Of a stretch of DNA of 64,000 bases, positions 58,043-62,824 are shown in pieces. Where the stretch lies: NCBI GenBank assembly GCA_019359695.1, contig JAHHGV010000045.1, positions 1-64,000 of the forward strand, read 5' to 3'. A program made the translations under genes and the position numbers. The notes beneath the pieces are model-generated. The model did not search any database. It worked only from the letters and a program-made list of their open reading frames with translations, and had not been told where the DNA came from. This stretch comes from Brasilonema angustatum HA4187-MV1 (GTDB lineage Bacteria; Cyanobacteriota; Cyanobacteriia; Cyanobacteriales; Nostocaceae). Positions within the stretch are counted from its first letter, which is position 1. Every line of letters begins with the position of its first letter.

Positions 58043-58981
58043 ATGAGAAGAAATAGGATTCCTGTTCAATTGGTTTGGGCAGTAGTCGTCATCTGTGTGC
58101 TGCCTAGCTTGCTGAATCTATTGGGAGTAGATTTTGGTTCGCCCTCACAGACTTTTGACGTCTCACTGTCAAATACCACTAAGGACAAAGTGATTGATGT
58201 TATGCACCACACTTTATCTGGTAGTTTTACGCACACTATCTTAGAGTGGAGTGCGTTTTGTACAGCAATCTTCACAGTAATTTTATCTTTGATACACTTC
58301 TATCTTAAGGCTGATGTCGTTACTCCCATCATTGGAGTAGCACTTTTTAGCTCTGGATGCATGGATGCATTTCACACTTTGGCAGCTGATAGATTAATTC
58401 AGGGTGTCGCAGATAACCAGAATCTTATCCCCTTCACTTGGGCAATCTGCCGACTTTTCAATGCTGTGATTATGCTTGGTGGAGCAAGCTTTTTTTTGAT
58501 TGCTCAGCCAGTGAGATGGAAAAGGGGTATCAGTTTGGTGGTACTTTCGAGTCTAGTTTTTGGTGTCATTGCTTTTTGGGTTGTATCTATCTGCGCCCAC
58601 AGCGCAACTCTACCTAAAACTATATTTCCTAACTCTATAGTGACTCGTCCGTGGGACATTGCTCCACTGTTACTGTTTATCTTTGCAGGTTTTGTTGTTT
58701 TCCCTCGCTTTTACAACAAATATCCAAGTTTGTTCTCTCATGCGCTGATTATCAGCGTTATTCCCGAGGTAGCCACTCAACTCCATATGGCTTTTGGTTC
58801 AAAAGAACTGTTTGACAACCATTTCAACATCGCCCATTTTCTCAAGATTATTGCTTACCTAGTGCCGTTTCTCGGATTGATTTTGGACTATATACGAACT
58901 TATCGAGAAGAGGCAGATACAGCTAAGGAGTTAAAACAAGCTATGGGGGTGTTTAGTTCTATTTTGAGTGAGTCGCGGTAA
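58043..58981 (+). CDS. Orphan MASE3-like seven-helix membrane sensor
   Basis: 312 residues with about seven to eight hydrophobic helices. LEWSAFCTAIFTVILSLIHF, TPIIGVALFSSGCMDAFHTLAADRLI, and FTWAICRLFNAVIMLGG fit the MASE3-type sensor domain that normally precedes PAS/histidine-kinase or GGDEF modules. Here the protein stops after the last helix and a short cytoplasmic tail (EEADTAKELKQAMG), with no output domain. It could be a truncated kinase or a stand-alone sensor acting with a partner, perhaps the divergent chemoreceptor. No kinase fragment was seen downstream. Confidence 0.65.
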   Translation: MRRNRIPVQLVWAVVVICVLPSLLNLLGVDFGSPSQTFDVSLSNTTKDKVIDVMHHTLSGSFTHTILEWSAFCTAIFTVILSLIHFYLKADVVTPIIGVALFSSGCMDAFHTLAADRLIQGVADNQNLIPFTWAICRLFNAVIMLGGASFFLIAQPVRWKRGISLVVLSSLVFGVIAFWVVSICAHSATLPKTIFPNSIVTRPWDIAPLLLFIFAGFVVFPRFYNKYPSLFSHALIISVIPEVATQLHMAFGSKELFDNHFNIAHFLKIIAYLVPFLGLILDYIRTYREEADTAKELKQAMGVFSSILSESR

Positions 58982-59068
58982 ACAGGTTCAGTACAAAGAC
59001 TCTGAACAACTACAATCAAAAATCTAAAGATTAGATGTTTACGAAGTTGCCAGAGCCTTCATTTATAC

Positions 59069-59941
59069 TTAAGCAGCACAACAAAGAGGGGCAGGTTTGA
59101 AACCCGCCCCCATGTCTTCCGATATTCTCCGCCCAACAGATGCTGCTACGGGCTTTAAGCTATGAACCAAATTCACCATATCTTCTAAAGACAGTGCTTG
59201 ACGTGCATCCGAAACAGATTTTTCTGGCTCTGGATGACACTCAATAATTAACCCATCTGCCCCACAAGCTATAGCCGCTTTGGCAAGAGGTGCCACGAGT
59301 TCACGTTTACCAACAGCATGAGATGGATCTACAATCACAGGTAAGTGAGTTATCTGCTTGAGAGCTGCCACTGCTCCTAAATCTAGTACGTTGCGGGTGT
59401 AATTGTCGAAGCTGCGGATACCTCGTTCGCACAGTACCACATCAGGATTTCCGTGACTTAAGATGTATTCAGCTGCCATAACAAATTCTTCAATTGTCGC
59501 TGCTAAGCCGCGTTTGAGGAGTATCGGCTTACCTGCTTGTCCTAATGCTTTGAGTAAGTCAAAGTTTTGCATGTTGCGGCTACCCACTTGAAGCATATCA
59601 ACATGGGCGGCGATCGCTTCTATTTGAGAAATTGCCATCACCTCAGTCACGACTGGGATATTGTAGTGCAGTTGCACTTTTGCCAAAATTTCCAGTCCAT
59701 CTTCTGCCATTCCCTGAAAAGCGTAGGGAGAGGTGCGGGGTTTGTAAACACCACCACGTAAAGCCTGTACAGGTGCGGCGGATAGCTTTTGAGCTACCGT
59801 TTCCATTTGTTCGACGCTTTCAACAGTGCAAGGTCCACCGATAATCACCAATTCTGTACCACCAAAGGCGACTTTTTCTGAAAGGTTGACGACTGTTTGA
59901 TGGTCAGGATGAGATTTGGCAGCTAGTTTAGCACTATTCAT
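59069..59941 (-). CDS. aroF: 3-deoxy-7-phosphoheptulonate synthase (DAHP synthase, type I-beta)
   Basis: First enzyme of the shikimate pathway, joining PEP and erythrose-4-phosphate. 290 residues, shorter than members with an N-terminal ferredoxin-like regulatory domain. Motifs: IIGGPCTVES, LRGGVYKPRTSPYAFQG, PILLKRGLAAT, VLCERGIRSF, PVIVDPSHAVGKRE and IIECHPEPEKS. AGGAG lies 9 nt before ATG 59941. The C-terminal tail (DMGAGFKPAPLCCAA) is partly encoded by a dispersed palindrome. The 300-nt leader carries two aromatic leader peptides and two terminators, so expression is probably set by charged Phe/Tyr/Trp tRNA rather than by an allosteric N-terminal domain. Confidence 0.95.
   Translation of the reverse strand: MNSAKLAAKSHPDHQTVVNLSEKVAFGGTELVIIGGPCTVESVEQMETVAQKLSAAPVQALRGGVYKPRTSPYAFQGMAEDGLEILAKVQLHYNIPVVTEVMAISQIEAIAAHVDMLQVGSRNMQNFDLLKALGQAGKPILLKRGLAATIEEFVMAAEYILSHGNPDVVLCERGIRSFDNYTRNVLDLGAVAALKQITHLPVIVDPSHAVGKRELVAPLAKAAIACGADGLIIECHPEPEKSVSDARQALSLEDMVNLVHSLKPVAASVGRRISEDMGAGFKPAPLCCAA
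59088..59110. repeat. Dispersed palindrome encoding the aroF C-terminal tail
   Basis: GGGGCAGGTTT-GA-AACCCGCCCC: arms pair with one mismatch. On the minus strand it is translated as GAGFKPAP, a tail often created by this repeat at gene ends in cyanobacteria. aroF stops 17 bp later. Confidence 0.6.
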
Positions 59942-59983
59942 GGTTGAATTCTCCTAAAAAACAAGAAATCAGAGGTTGACATT

Positions 59984-60015
59984 AAAAAAGCCCAGAACCT
60001 TTGCTGTTCCGGGCT
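59984..60015 (-). terminator. Attenuator 2 terminator, proximal to aroF
   Basis: Minus strand: AGCCCGGAAC, 7-nt loop, GTTCTGGGCT (one G-U), then T6 at 59989-59984. 42 nt before the aroF ATG. The descending arm GTTCTGGG is identical to sequence in the last codons of leader peptide 2 (60045-60052), so the ascending arm can pair with either: the leader copy (antiterminator) or the terminator copy. Confidence 0.85.
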
Positions 60016-60041
60016 TGAAAGATTCATCGACATGATGCTAT

Positions 60042-60104
60042 CTACCCAGAACTTATTGGGGACCAAAAATAAAAGCCATAAAACCAGGTTTTGAGATAGA
60101 TCAT
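60042..60104 (-). CDS. Aromatic leader peptide 2 (aroF attenuator)
   Basis: 20-residue peptide from ATG 60104 to TAG at 60042. It contains three Tyr, three Phe and two Trp: codon 3 Tyr, codons 7-9 Trp-Phe-Tyr and codons 11-14 Phe-Tyr-Phe-Trp. AAGGAG at 60120-60125 is the likely ribosome site (spacing 15 nt to ATG, 12 to an in-frame GTG at 60107). The last codons (18-20) carry the antiterminator sequence AGTTCTGGG. Stalling at the aromatic run leaves this free to pair with 60006-60013; translation to the stop would cover it and let the terminator form. Confidence 0.8.
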   Translation of the reverse strand: MIYLKTWFYGFYFWSPISSG

Positions 60105-60125
60105 CACGATGAAATAGAACTCCTT

Positions 60126-60160
60126 AAAAAAACAAAAACCGCAGAGTGCGCTCTGCGGTT
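60126..60160 (-). terminator. Attenuator 1 terminator
   Basis: Minus strand: AACCGCAGAG-CGCA-CTCTGCGGTT, a perfect 10-bp stem (60137-60160), followed by a T-rich tract T5-G-T7 (60136-60126). It lies between leader peptides 1 and 2. Its first four bases (AACC) are shared with the antiterminator at 60157-60206. Confidence 0.85.
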
Positions 60161-60206
60161 CACCGGGCGGTTTCCATTAGGAAACTGAATTCACCCCCGG
60201 TGAACC
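60157..60206 (-). promoter_or_regulatory. Attenuator 1 antiterminator pairing
   Basis: GGTTCACCGGG at 60196-60206 (end of leader peptide 1) pairs perfectly over 11 bp with CCCGGTGAACC at 60157-60167. This pairing uses the AACC that the terminator at 60137-60160 also needs, so the two folds exclude each other. Confidence 0.75.
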
Positions 60207-60247
60207 ACCCTAAACCAAAAATAAAAATAGGAATGACTGCGATACAT
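60191..60247 (-). CDS. Aromatic leader peptide 1 (aroF attenuator)
   Basis: 18-residue peptide from ATG 60247 to TGA at 60191. Codons 7-12 are Tyr-Phe-Tyr-Phe-Trp-Phe, with a further Tyr at codon 2. Codons 15-18 (Val-His-Arg-Gly) contain the antiterminator arm. No strong ribosome site is seen. It starts about 40-50 nt after a possible promoter. Two aromatic-rich peptides of this type in a row, each with its own terminator, would be improbable by chance. Confidence 0.75.
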   Translation of the reverse strand: MYRSHSYFYFWFRVVHRG

Positions 60248-60294
60248 TTGTTAGGCGCTTTGTTGGATAACTTAATTTTCACTCATACTTTATG

Positions 60295-60323
60295 ACGCTA
60301 GCATAGACAACGAGTTCCGTCAA
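60295..60323 (-). promoter_or_regulatory. Possible sigma-70 promoter of the aroF leader
   Basis: Minus strand: TTGACG (60323-60318), 17-bp spacer, TAGCGT (60300-60295). The -35 is strong and the -10 weak. Transcription would start near 60288, just upstream of leader peptide 1. Confidence 0.4.
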
Positions 60324-60399
60324 GAAAGCCATAACGCATGAAAAAGCGTTAAACTTAGTACAATTGATGCGAATTAAAGCATATTGCTAGTCAACGTAA

Positions 60400-60570
60400 A
60401 ATGTCATTACGGAGCGCGCAGCGGGCAAGGGAGGGTATACGGTATGCAATATAGACGCGTTGCATTCTTCGTGTCCTCTTGGGATAAGCGCAGCTTCCCG
60501 TAGACCCCGTAGGAGGCTTACCGTAGGGTAGTGTAGCGAAGTAATCACAAAGATTCTATTTTACGTTTTT
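60400..60570. repeat. Dispersed repeat block upstream of the zinc-ribbon gene
   Basis: Starts with GTCATTACGGAGCGCGCAGCGGG and ends with TAATCACAAAGATTC... (60542-60570), which matches 46486-46514 with one mismatch over 29 bp. The middle is GC-rich with CCGTAG-type palindromes. The remaining 240 bp up to the next gene is AT-rich without features. Confidence 0.6.
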
Positions 60571-60816
60571 TTCTGTTGACTACTTATCATCTTCTTTACA
60601 GAATTTTAAAAATATATTTTTTTCATTGTTCATAGAGAAATAATAAATGTATGAATCCTGAACGAAGAATTGGATTATTTTCACCTCATTATTAACTCAA
60701 TTAATACTTAAAAACATCCGATTATTAAACTGTAAAAATTTTTCTCTGTATACAACTAGGAACTAGACCAATTGCTAGCAAGTTGTTTTATTCCGGATTA
60801 AACTTTGAATGCATGA

Positions 60817-61320
60817 ATGCGTGAATTGCTTATGATGCCCAGTACCAAAATTTTAACTACATCTTTTCATGATCAAGGAGTTTATCCCTGCCCAGTCTGT
60901 CGTGTGGGTAAGATTAGTCATATGCCACTTATGGAGGCTATGTCTTGTGACTTCTGCCAACAAATTTTTACTGCAAATGTAGAACAGCAACAAATTAAAA
61001 TGCCATCCAGACAACCACCTCTGATTTGGTATTGGAATGGTTTTCATTGGACAGAAGCCCAAATAGAAGGTGTAGAACTTGGATGGGGCTACATGATAGC
61101 AGCAGTTGCTTTTGTACTCCTGCCAACTATTTTAATTGGGATAGTCGCTTATAATTTTCCACCATCACCAGAAACTCCCCTATCTTGGCTACCATATGTC
61201 TGGACAGCATTAACTTTTTTGTTACATTTAGCAATTATTATTTGGCTTTTGATTGAAGTTTATCAAATTCCAGTTGGGGCGTATTGGCGAGCTATACAAC
61301 AGCGTTTCCTTGGTCGGTGA
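60817..61320 (+). CDS. Zinc-ribbon membrane protein of unknown function
   Basis: 167 residues. Two CxxC pairs, CPVC (about residue 25) and CDFC (about residue 44), make an N-terminal zinc ribbon. Two membrane segments follow: LGWGYMIAAVAFVLLPTILIGIVAY and WTALTFLLHLAIIIWLLIEVY. The start could be ATG 60817, 60832 or 60835; no ribosome site separates them. Topology suggests a cytoplasmic zinc ribbon anchored by a hairpin. Role unknown; probably a cyanobacterial family. Confidence 0.7.
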   Translation: MRELLMMPSTKILTTSFHDQGVYPCPVCRVGKISHMPLMEAMSCDFCQQIFTANVEQQQIKMPSRQPPLIWYWNGFHWTEAQIEGVELGWGYMIAAVAFVLLPTILIGIVAYNFPPSPETPLSWLPYVWTALTFLLHLAIIIWLLIEVYQIPVGAYWRAIQQRFLGR

Positions 61321-62017: not shown

Positions 62018-62824
62018 ATGAGCGAGTTCGAGCAGTATTATAGAGTTTTGGAATTAGAGCCTGGGGCAACATTTGAGGAAGTGACCCAAGCTTATAAAGA
62101 TTTGGCTTTTGTATGGCATCCTGATCGCCTGCCAAAAGACAATACCCGTTTACAAGAGAAAGCGCAAAAAAAGCTACAAGAAATTAATGAGGCTCGTGAA
62201 CAATTGCGCTTATCAAGCTTGAAGTATCAAACGTTACAATATTCTGCCTCACACTATTCAGCACCATCTGCACAGAAAAATCCAACCGAGAAAACCTATC
62301 AACATTCAGCAGCGTCTGCACAGAAAAATCCAACCGAGAAAACCTATCAACATTCAGCAGCGTCTGCACAGAAAAATCCAACCGAGAAAACCTATCAACA
62401 TTCAGCAGCGTCTGCACAGAGAAAGCCAACCGAGAAAACCTATCAACCACCACACCCAAACCCAGACTTAAGTGGAAAAGACTATAGTCGGGCAAACTTA
62501 CAAAACAAAGATTTATCTGGCAGAAACATGAGTTATGCGAACTTGAGTGGTGCGAATCTCAGTGATACTTTCATGCACAAAGTGAATCTTAGAGGTGCAA
62601 ATTTGTCTGAGGCAAATTTATTTAGAGCTAACCTACTTTTAGCTGATCTGAGGGAAGCCAATTTCCGGGGTGCTAATTTAGTTGGAGCAGATTTGAGTGG
62701 AGCAGATTTGCGGGGAGCGAACTTCATGGGAGCGCGGATGAAATCTGGTGACAGACTTCTTGTTAAACTGGTTGGAGCTAACTTAGCTGGGGCAATTATG
62801 CCTGATGGCAAAATTTATGAATAA
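62018..62824 (+). CDS. DnaJ-domain / pentapeptide-repeat fusion protein
   Basis: 268 residues in three parts. A J-domain (about 5-68) has the HPD motif at 34-36, which stimulates DnaK ATPase. A low-complexity linker (about 84-146) has three full and one partial copies of a 16-residue unit (AQKNPTEKTYQHSAAS). The C-terminal part (about 150-260) is a pentapeptide-repeat right-handed beta-helix of the A(D/N)Lxx type (YANLSGANLSD, LREANFRGANLVGADLSGAD). It probably recruits DnaK to whatever the beta-helix binds. No membrane segment. Ends 9 bp before the SDR gene, likely co-transcribed. Confidence 0.9.
   Translation: MSEFEQYYRVLELEPGATFEEVTQAYKDLAFVWHPDRLPKDNTRLQEKAQKKLQEINEAREQLRLSSLKYQTLQYSASHYSAPSAQKNPTEKTYQHSAASAQKNPTEKTYQHSAASAQKNPTEKTYQHSAASAQRKPTEKTYQPPHPNPDLSGKDYSRANLQNKDLSGRNMSYANLSGANLSDTFMHKVNLRGANLSEANLFRANLLLADLREANFRGANLVGADLSGADLRGANFMGARMKSGDRLLVKLVGANLAGAIMPDGKIYE
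62270..62441 (+). repeat. 48-bp tandem repeat in the DnaJ-pentapeptide gene
   Basis: Units begin at 62270, 62318 and 62366, with a partial, diverged fourth at 62414. The first three are almost identical in DNA, so the copy number probably varies between strains. Confidence 0.9.

Follow-up and report, generated by a model that had tools for sequence, protein, structure and literature searches.

The aroF leader region

The window, that is, the whole 64,000-nt stretch of Brasilonema angustatum HA4187-MV1 DNA analysed here, carries on its minus strand the DAHP synthase gene aroF. Read along that strand, the gene is preceded by a promoter-like sequence, leader 1, terminator 1, leader 2 and terminator 2, in this order. 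The features are as follows.

60323-60295, minus strand: promoter-like sequence TTGACG-N17-TAGCGT (-35 at 60323-60318, -10 at 60300-60295)
60247-60191, minus strand: leader ORF 1, encoding MYRSHSYFYFWFRVVHRG up to its stop codon; present in 158 of 160 loci
60229-60212, minus strand: aromatic codons 7-12 of leader 1 (Y F Y F W F), read from the sequence
60206-60196, minus strand: strand A of antiterminator 1, GGTTCACCGGG, in the last codons of leader 1; pairs with 60167-60157 (covariation)
60167-60157, minus strand: strand B of antiterminator 1, CCCGGTGAACC, with AACC common to the terminator 5' arm (covariation, folds)
60161-60126, minus strand: intrinsic terminator 1, stem 60161-60136 and T-run (covariation)
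60104-60042, minus strand: leader ORF 2, encoding MIYLKTWFYGFYFWSPISSG up to its stop codon; present in 156 of 160 loci; alternative in-frame ATG at 60107
60086-60063, minus strand: aromatic codons 7-9 and 11-14 of leader 2 (W F Y. F Y F W), read from the sequence
60052-60044, minus strand: strand A' of antiterminator 2, GTTCTGGGT, at the end of leader 2; pairs with 60014-60006 (covariation)
60014-60006, minus strand: strand C', GCCCGGAAC, common to antiterminator 2 and terminator 2 (covariation)
60016-59984, minus strand: intrinsic terminator 2, stem 60016-59988 and T-run (covariation)
60104-60094, minus strand: 5' strand of helix P0, in the start-codon region of leader 2 (window fold; swapped-partner test, 81 loci)
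60043-60032, minus strand: 3' strand of helix P0, at and after the leader 2 stop codon (window fold; swapped-partner test)
59941-59069, minus strand: aroF, DAHP synthase, 290 aa

In attenuator 1, GGTTCACCGGG (60206-60196) and CCCGGTGAACC (60167-60157) form 11 bp, and CCCGGTGAACC shares AACC with the terminator 1 arm AACCGCAGAG (60160-60151). In attenuator 2, the leader-end sequence GTTCTGGG (60052-60045) is a copy of part of the terminator 3' arm (59998-59991) and can pair with the terminator 2 5' arm (60014-60006). A first-pass annotation of this DNA had placed two aromatic leader ORFs here, each followed by an intrinsic terminator that the end of the leader could engage (through 11 bp in the first, through a duplication in the second). 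The leader coordinates and aromatic codon positions it gave match on the minus strand, two terminators with a stem and a T-run are found, and the pairings are correct as it described them.

Among 3000 dinucleotide shuffles of 59942-60323, at least one aromatic ORF (a short ORF with at least 6 aromatic residues in 10) arose in 58 and two arose in 1; the real region has two. A single aromatic ORF is not rare, because by the same criterion seven occur across both strands of the 64-kb window, and we regard conservation between loci, not the shuffle count, as the decisive evidence for the leaders.

Two other features were noted by eye. An ORF at 62018-62824 (plus strand) resembles a J-domain protein bearing pentapeptide-like repeats, and within it a 16-residue stretch is repeated four times in frame (SAASAQKNPTEKTYQH-like). 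At 60420-60540, a GC-rich stretch lies inside an AT-rich intergenic region; we take it to resemble the dispersed intergenic repeats of filamentous cyanobacteria.

Conservation of the two leaders

We compared 160 aroF loci with usable upstream DNA, comprising the window, 76 named relatives, 24 loci (L085-L108) and further loci of the class, with some species present in two collections. For the named relatives, one genome per species was scanned and the best 80 loci were taken. Loci with less than 300 nt upstream at contig ends (L034, L040, L041, L047) and one with no anchor (L209) were dropped. The upstream DNA of 60 further loci was taken mostly at one per genus, with proteins 62-79% identical to that of the window. 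The paralogues L002-L004 and the remote homologues L109-L112 stand outside the 160, and 14 leaders in 11 loci were assigned by hand where the automatic rule failed.

The first-pass annotation had proposed aligning the regions upstream of aroF in search of conserved aromatic leader ORFs, and such ORFs are indeed conserved: leader 1 is present in 158 of the 160 loci, leader 2 in 156 and both in 154. All 76 named relatives carry both leaders, those of L009, L021 and L053 being found only on longer or looser inspection; the typical forms among these relatives are M..NSYFYFWFRVVHRE and MTYFSSWFYGFYFWPR.SSG, each ending at the stop codon. Single-attenuator lineages, which amount to natural single-gate controls, have leader 1 only (L105, L216, L217, L218) or leader 2 only (L107, L214).

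Leader 1 contains all three aromatic residues at 153 of 158 loci and leader 2 at 152 of 156, although this content is not independent evidence because the ORF scan demanded it. Across 66 non-redundant leaders 1, aromatic residues make up 70-92% of each of the four columns ahead of the last Trp. The order of the peptide core (YFYFW in leader 1, WFYGFYFW in leader 2) is kept across distant families, while Tyr and Phe interchange and other positions vary. Codon-position tests were uninformative, because Phe/Tyr exchange places changes at codon position 2. In leader 2 of L097 the usual stop is missing and the frame continues for 44 residues; its terminator, missed by the script, is visible by eye.

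Of the 158 loci with leader 1, 151 have a promoter-like TTGACN-N16-18-TANNNT in the 130 nt ahead of it, versus 2 of 158 mononucleotide-shuffled controls. Shine-Dalgarno-like strings precede leader 1 in 3 of 158 loci and leader 2 in 87 of 156.

Distribution across the class

Of 388 genomes sampled evenly across class Cyanobacteriia, 142, in 17 family groups, have an aroF orthologue at E ≤ 1e-100; the orthologue is not universal in the class, as the other 246 lack one at this cut-off. For attenuator 1 we used a covariance model that took no account of coding; run on all 388 genomes, it gave a match 66-362 nt upstream of aroF and on the same strand in 139 of the 142. The genomes with no match are G143 (L107) and G541 (L214), both leader 2 only, and G604, where the contig ends within the attenuator 1 element and terminator 1 and leader 2 are still visible. 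Among matches with no called aroF, L220, L221 and L223 are aroF loci cut by a contig end, and at L222 both leaders are seen and the contig ends before the gene. At L224 (G030:C48, 74049-74122, minus strand), in a same-family genome with no called aroF, an intact leader 1 adjoins a broken aroF-like remnant. Of the matches at 33 bits or less and away from aroF, those inspected (L225-L228, a set that leaves aside G362, G372, G619 and additional matches within some genomes) look like chance or ordinary terminators.

With the model of attenuator 2, the matches listed include one 17-173 nt ahead of aroF in 132 of the 142 genomes. G116, G392, G407 and G432, with no listed match ahead of aroF, are leader-1-only loci, and G442, among the ten with no listed match, belongs to the same family group as three leader-1-only genomes. 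A match is present in G464, G503, G590 and G599 at a place that is not among the matches listed, and L182 (G464) shows leader 2; G601, with no listed match, shows leader 2 by eye (L244). Of 18 listed matches away from a called aroF, three are aroF loci at contig ends and 12 look like ordinary terminators, G239, G396 and G432 (contig C179) falling outside this assessment. A peptide-plus-pairing pattern of leader 1 was found in 21 of 386 genomes of the phylum, and its reversed control in none. In one of the 21, G109, the attenuator architecture is absent by eye.

Judged from these sequences, the double attenuator is a real, widespread feature of this aroF orthologue, and the tandem system is spread well beyond Nostocales.

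The genome that carries the window has three further DAHP synthase homologues (L002, L003, L004; 52-53% identity), and no aromatic leader pair was found upstream of them or of the remote homologues L109-L112 (51-54% identity). A loose aromatic pattern gave 37 matches in the same genome versus 22 in a reversed control, one of the 37 being leader 1. Other aromatic attenuators were sought there in 20 of 36 pattern regions and at 6 chorismate-binding homologues, with no convincing set of leader, terminator and aromatic gene. Three DAHP synthase genes with differing UV responses are described for Chlorogloeopsis fritschii PCC 6912 in the cited part of PMC7693272; L071 is from this strain and holds one of the three.

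Alternative helices and their covariation

A script found a terminator between leader and gene in 158 of 158 loci for leader 1 and 154 of 156 for leader 2 (not in L097 and L103). To count as an antiterminator, a helix had to involve the leader end, span 6 bp or more and share 2 nt or more with the terminator 5' arm. Terminator and antiterminator together were found in 156 of 158 loci for attenuator 1 and 151 of 156 for attenuator 2; when the leader end was shuffled and the terminator kept, such a helix arose in 306 of 1580 (19%) and 258 of 1540 (17%) trials. At 8 bp, the corresponding figures were 150 of 158 and 125 of 156 observed versus 84 of 1580 and 37 of 1540 shuffled. The two leader-1 loci with no such helix are L096 and L215; in L096, leader 1 ends ahead of the antiterminator strand. 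In most loci, the overlap between antiterminator 1 and its terminator is 3-7 nt long.

The helices keep their pairing through changes in sequence. Examples are GGTTCACCGAG with CTCGGTGAACC in L105 (inside 12 bp), GTTCGCCCGGA with TCCGGGCGAAC in L094 and GCCCCGGGT with ACCCGGGGC in L108. In L182 and L205, the leader-2 strand is shifted upstream within the ORF (CCGGGTCAGG with CCTGACCCGG) and the helix is retained; L244 is similar by eye.

Covariation was measured on sequence-based alignments of 66 of 158 leader-1 and 81 of 156 leader-2 segments left after removal of near-duplicates (similarity above 0.88), alignment A3 holding 68 of the 81. Compared with 500 shuffles, whose counts are not probabilities because the shuffles ignore relatedness, cells with two-sided changes numbered 66 in antiterminator 1 (23.8 ± 3.5 in shuffles), 42 in terminator 1 (11.9 ± 2.9), 32 in antiterminator 2 (10.5 ± 2.3) and 55 in terminator 2 (14.9 ± 9.1), and in each case 0 of 500 shuffles reached the observed value. 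Counted by pairs instead of cells, antiterminator 2 has two-sided change in 3, which does not exceed the shuffles (234 of 500). Paired cells made up 88-94% of the observed helices, 84-88% in the shuffles, which are already this high because the columns are conserved, and 14-60% when partners were slid by 1-3 columns, a control that keeps relatedness. In the shared strand, column 79 of A2 pairs with the leader as C-G in 20 sequences and with the terminator arm as G-C in 11 and G-U in 13.

Covarying stems had been called for by the first-pass annotation, and both alternative helices covary in both attenuators. Taken on these pairings, antiterminator and terminator are mutually exclusive in each. 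A local protector hairpin in attenuator 1 was considered and set aside: it is conserved, with 89.3% of cells paired, but shows no covariation above shuffles. The protector helix aside, every hallmark of a leader-peptide attenuator that can be read at the level of sequence is present.

Ribosome position and predicted folding

The last Trp codon and the antiterminator strand are mostly separated by 9-11 nt in leader 1 (136 of 156) and by 12-15 nt in leader 2 (114 of 154). With an assumed ribosome footprint, the geometry of the leaders lets a ribosome at the stop codon mask the antiterminator strand, while one at the regulatory codons leaves it free, save at the last aromatic codons. Using the same assumption, we folded 64 of 66 leader-1 and 79 of 81 leader-2 loci in the state before the terminator 3' arm is made. 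For leader 1, the mean antiterminator probability was 0.96 with no ribosome, 0.96 with the ribosome at the first aromatic codon, 0.44 at the last Trp (63 loci) and 0.00 at the stop. The corresponding values for leader 2 were 0.58, 0.89, 0.72 and 0.00.

In the window, antiterminator 1 had a probability of 1.0 with the ribosome at codons 2-9, 0.78 at F10, 0.38 at W11 and 0.00 from F12 onward. Antiterminator 2 stayed at 0.97-0.99 for codons 2-12 and fell to 0.71 at F13, 0.01 at W14 and 0.00 thereafter. With no ribosome, the probabilities were 1.0 for antiterminator 1 and 0.00 for antiterminator 2.

With the first Trp codon in the A site, the antiterminator probability exceeded 0.5 in 20 of 63 leaders 1 versus 68 of 79 leaders 2. 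In the folding model, part of antiterminator 1 already lies beneath a ribosome that waits at the Trp of leader 1; antiterminator 2 stays clear of a ribosome at the first Trp of leader 2. Trp should thus act mainly via leader 2, because its first Trp leaves the antiterminator free. The idea, put forward in the first-pass annotation, that the operon would sense all three aromatic amino acids is best narrowed for leader 1, whose Trp is poorly placed in the predicted folds.

We also folded the full-length RNA. With no ribosome, antiterminator 1 beats its terminator in 38 of 64 loci, whereas antiterminator 2 is favoured at equilibrium in at most 21 of 79 in any state, a stalled ribosome included. 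Since terminator 2 wins at equilibrium in most loci, attenuator 2 would have to work kinetically, and this predicted dependence on kinetics is the main weakness of the model.

Helix P0

The window fold pairs the start region of leader 2 (60104-60094) with the segment at and after its stop codon (60043-60032). Over 81 loci, this P0 pairing reached -13.5 kcal/mol versus -10.6 kcal/mol for partners swapped between loci (p = 5e-7) and was the stronger in 73%. As an ungapped helix, it ranked in the top 5% of a locus's own shuffles in only 26% of the 81 loci, and the leader 2 start codon fell within the best P0 helix in 37 of 81, versus 30% in shuffles. The same swapped-partner test on the start region and post-stop segment of leader 1, a negative control for P0, gave no signal (p = 0.61). 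Support for P0 in these comparisons is moderate, and it is probably not general. Where present, it should favour termination in the absence of translation, because its position crosses the antiterminator. A closed default does not hold for attenuator 2 in general: at 46 of 79 loci its antiterminator forms even with no ribosome, in the state before the 3' arm is made.

Proposed mechanism and alternative explanations

The sequence and its comparison between loci show that the two ORFs and their terminators exist, that the covarying helices exclude each other, what geometry these parts have and that they are tied to aroF. We hypothesize that the aroF mRNA leader is very probably a pair of ribosome-mediated transcription attenuators in series that sense the charging of aromatic tRNAs. 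A ribosome would trail RNA polymerase along each short ORF rich in Tyr, Phe and Trp. When the aromatic tRNAs are charged, it would come to the stop codon and cover the antiterminator strand; the terminator would then fold and transcription stop. When an aromatic tRNA is scarce, the ribosome would stall in the aromatic run, leaving the last codons free to pair over the terminator 5' arm, with read-through as the outcome. Full expression of aroF would require read-through at both sites. Translation of the leaders, stalling, tRNA sensing and the multiplication of the two gates are steps that we infer. The tandem architecture proposed in the first-pass annotation finds support in the conservation of the ORFs, the covarying helices and the conserved promoter-like sequence.

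The folding model further suggests that the two attenuators are unlike gates. More tentatively, attenuator 1 would be open unless leader 1 is translated to its end, and attenuator 2, at least in this locus, would be closed unless a ribosome stalls, the helix between the leader 2 start region and stop segment competing with the antiterminator. One could extend this to an ancient logic device, kept across much of Cyanobacteriia, whose unlike gates compute a steep two-input response, gate 1 answering to early Tyr/Phe codons and gate 2 to the Trp-first leader 2 together with P0; aroF would then be fully read only when leader 2 is translated and stalled. We consider this extension rather unlikely; the folding counts against it at gate 2, which would stand open with no ribosome at roughly half of the loci (46 of 79).

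Several other readings of the region have to be weighed. In this organism one attenuator alone might matter, the other being a relic or a constitutive terminator; one-leader lineages exist and terminator 2 wins at equilibrium, but 154 of 160 loci retain the two attenuators, their alternative helices covary and the pair in the window is intact, and we hold this to be improbable. The nascent peptides might instead sense free aromatic amino acid in a TnaC-like manner, so that the stall would not come from uncharged tRNA. The peptide core order kept over distant families (YFYFW; WFYGFYFW) would fit such sensing, which is nevertheless highly improbable: Tyr and Phe interchange, the leaders are otherwise variable, the conserved C-termini (VHRE; SSG) are accounted for by RNA pairing, and a stall in excess amino acid would turn a biosynthetic gene on amid plentiful product.

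We give even less credence to a main role in trans for the terminated leader RNAs or the two peptides, with cis attenuation secondary. Terminated RNAs of approximately 160 and 300 nt would be expected from the promoter-like site, and the attenuator leader peptide peTrpL acts in trans in Sinorhizobium according to the cited portion of PMC7298713; against this, the covariation backs a cis switch and the element lies in cis to aroF in 139 of 142 genomes. Least probable of all is an uncharacterised riboswitch, T-box or protein-bound terminator with incidental ORFs. The strong conservation of the region would suit it, but Rfam 15 has no match at threshold in 58900-61200 of the window (best 22.6 bits versus a gathering score of 55) and 0 matches in 18 relatives, and the presence of aromatic ORFs in register with the switch helices at nearly every locus would be left unexplained.

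If it operates as we propose, with two leaders translated in series, the double aroF attenuator offers a concrete mechanism open to reporter fusions and a natural serial pair with overlapping inputs, and it is strong comparative evidence for amino-acid-sensing leader peptides in Cyanobacteria. Control of the first shikimate-pathway enzyme in this phylum bears on aromatic amino acids, on metabolic engineering and on sunscreens such as scytonemin, which the cited section of PMC7997468 describes as made from Trp and p-hydroxyphenylpyruvate. The first-pass annotation knew of no such tandem system for a cyanobacterial aroF; we likewise found no description of one in the open-access literature, most subscription papers lying outside that scope.

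Comparison with known attenuators

Leader-peptide attenuators of the trp/phe/his type in Proteobacteria combine codons for the product amino acid with exclusive helices, and the position of the ribosome decides between them. The aroF leader shares these elements, with ORFs rich in end-product codons, exclusive antiterminator and terminator helices and a predicted decisive role of ribosome position. It differs in having two attenuators in series and all three aromatics in nearly every leader, and in its antiterminator strand, which sits within the end of the ORF, with no covarying protector hairpin in attenuator 1. The trp leader family is RF00513, as given in the cited passage of PMC4046766. 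A 2010 survey states, in the part cited, that such systems were unproven outside Proteobacteria and Actinobacteria until it added Firmicutes (PMC2965389), and the portion of PMC4833913 that deals with leader-gene distances reports no peak in cyanobacteria.

One of the nearest published cases is the aroF gene of Corynebacterium glutamicum, for which the cited passage gives a putative Phe-Tyr-Phe leader peptide (PMC4046766). Likened by that description, it too pairs a DAHP synthase gene with an aromatic leader, but it has one leader and belongs to another phylum. In the uORFC-13-1 motif, a terminator and a uORF that includes one or more phenylalanine codons lie upstream of Acholeplasma aroF (PMC8632094); as described in the cited part, the motif comprises one uORF, one named genus and 24 sequences, none of them cyanobacterial, whereas the cyanobacterial aroF has two leaders. 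Another near case is the mgtCBR leader of Salmonella, whose tandem attenuators respond to ATP and proline and are termed a singular example in the cited passage (PMC3641672). Like the aroF leader, it has two short ORFs in series, each within an attenuator; unlike mgtCBR, which by that account takes two different signals, both aroF leaders are rich in the same three amino acids. The aroF leader stands apart from the known attenuators in that its two attenuators lie in series, would share their inputs, occur in Cyanobacteria and appear to be unlike gates.
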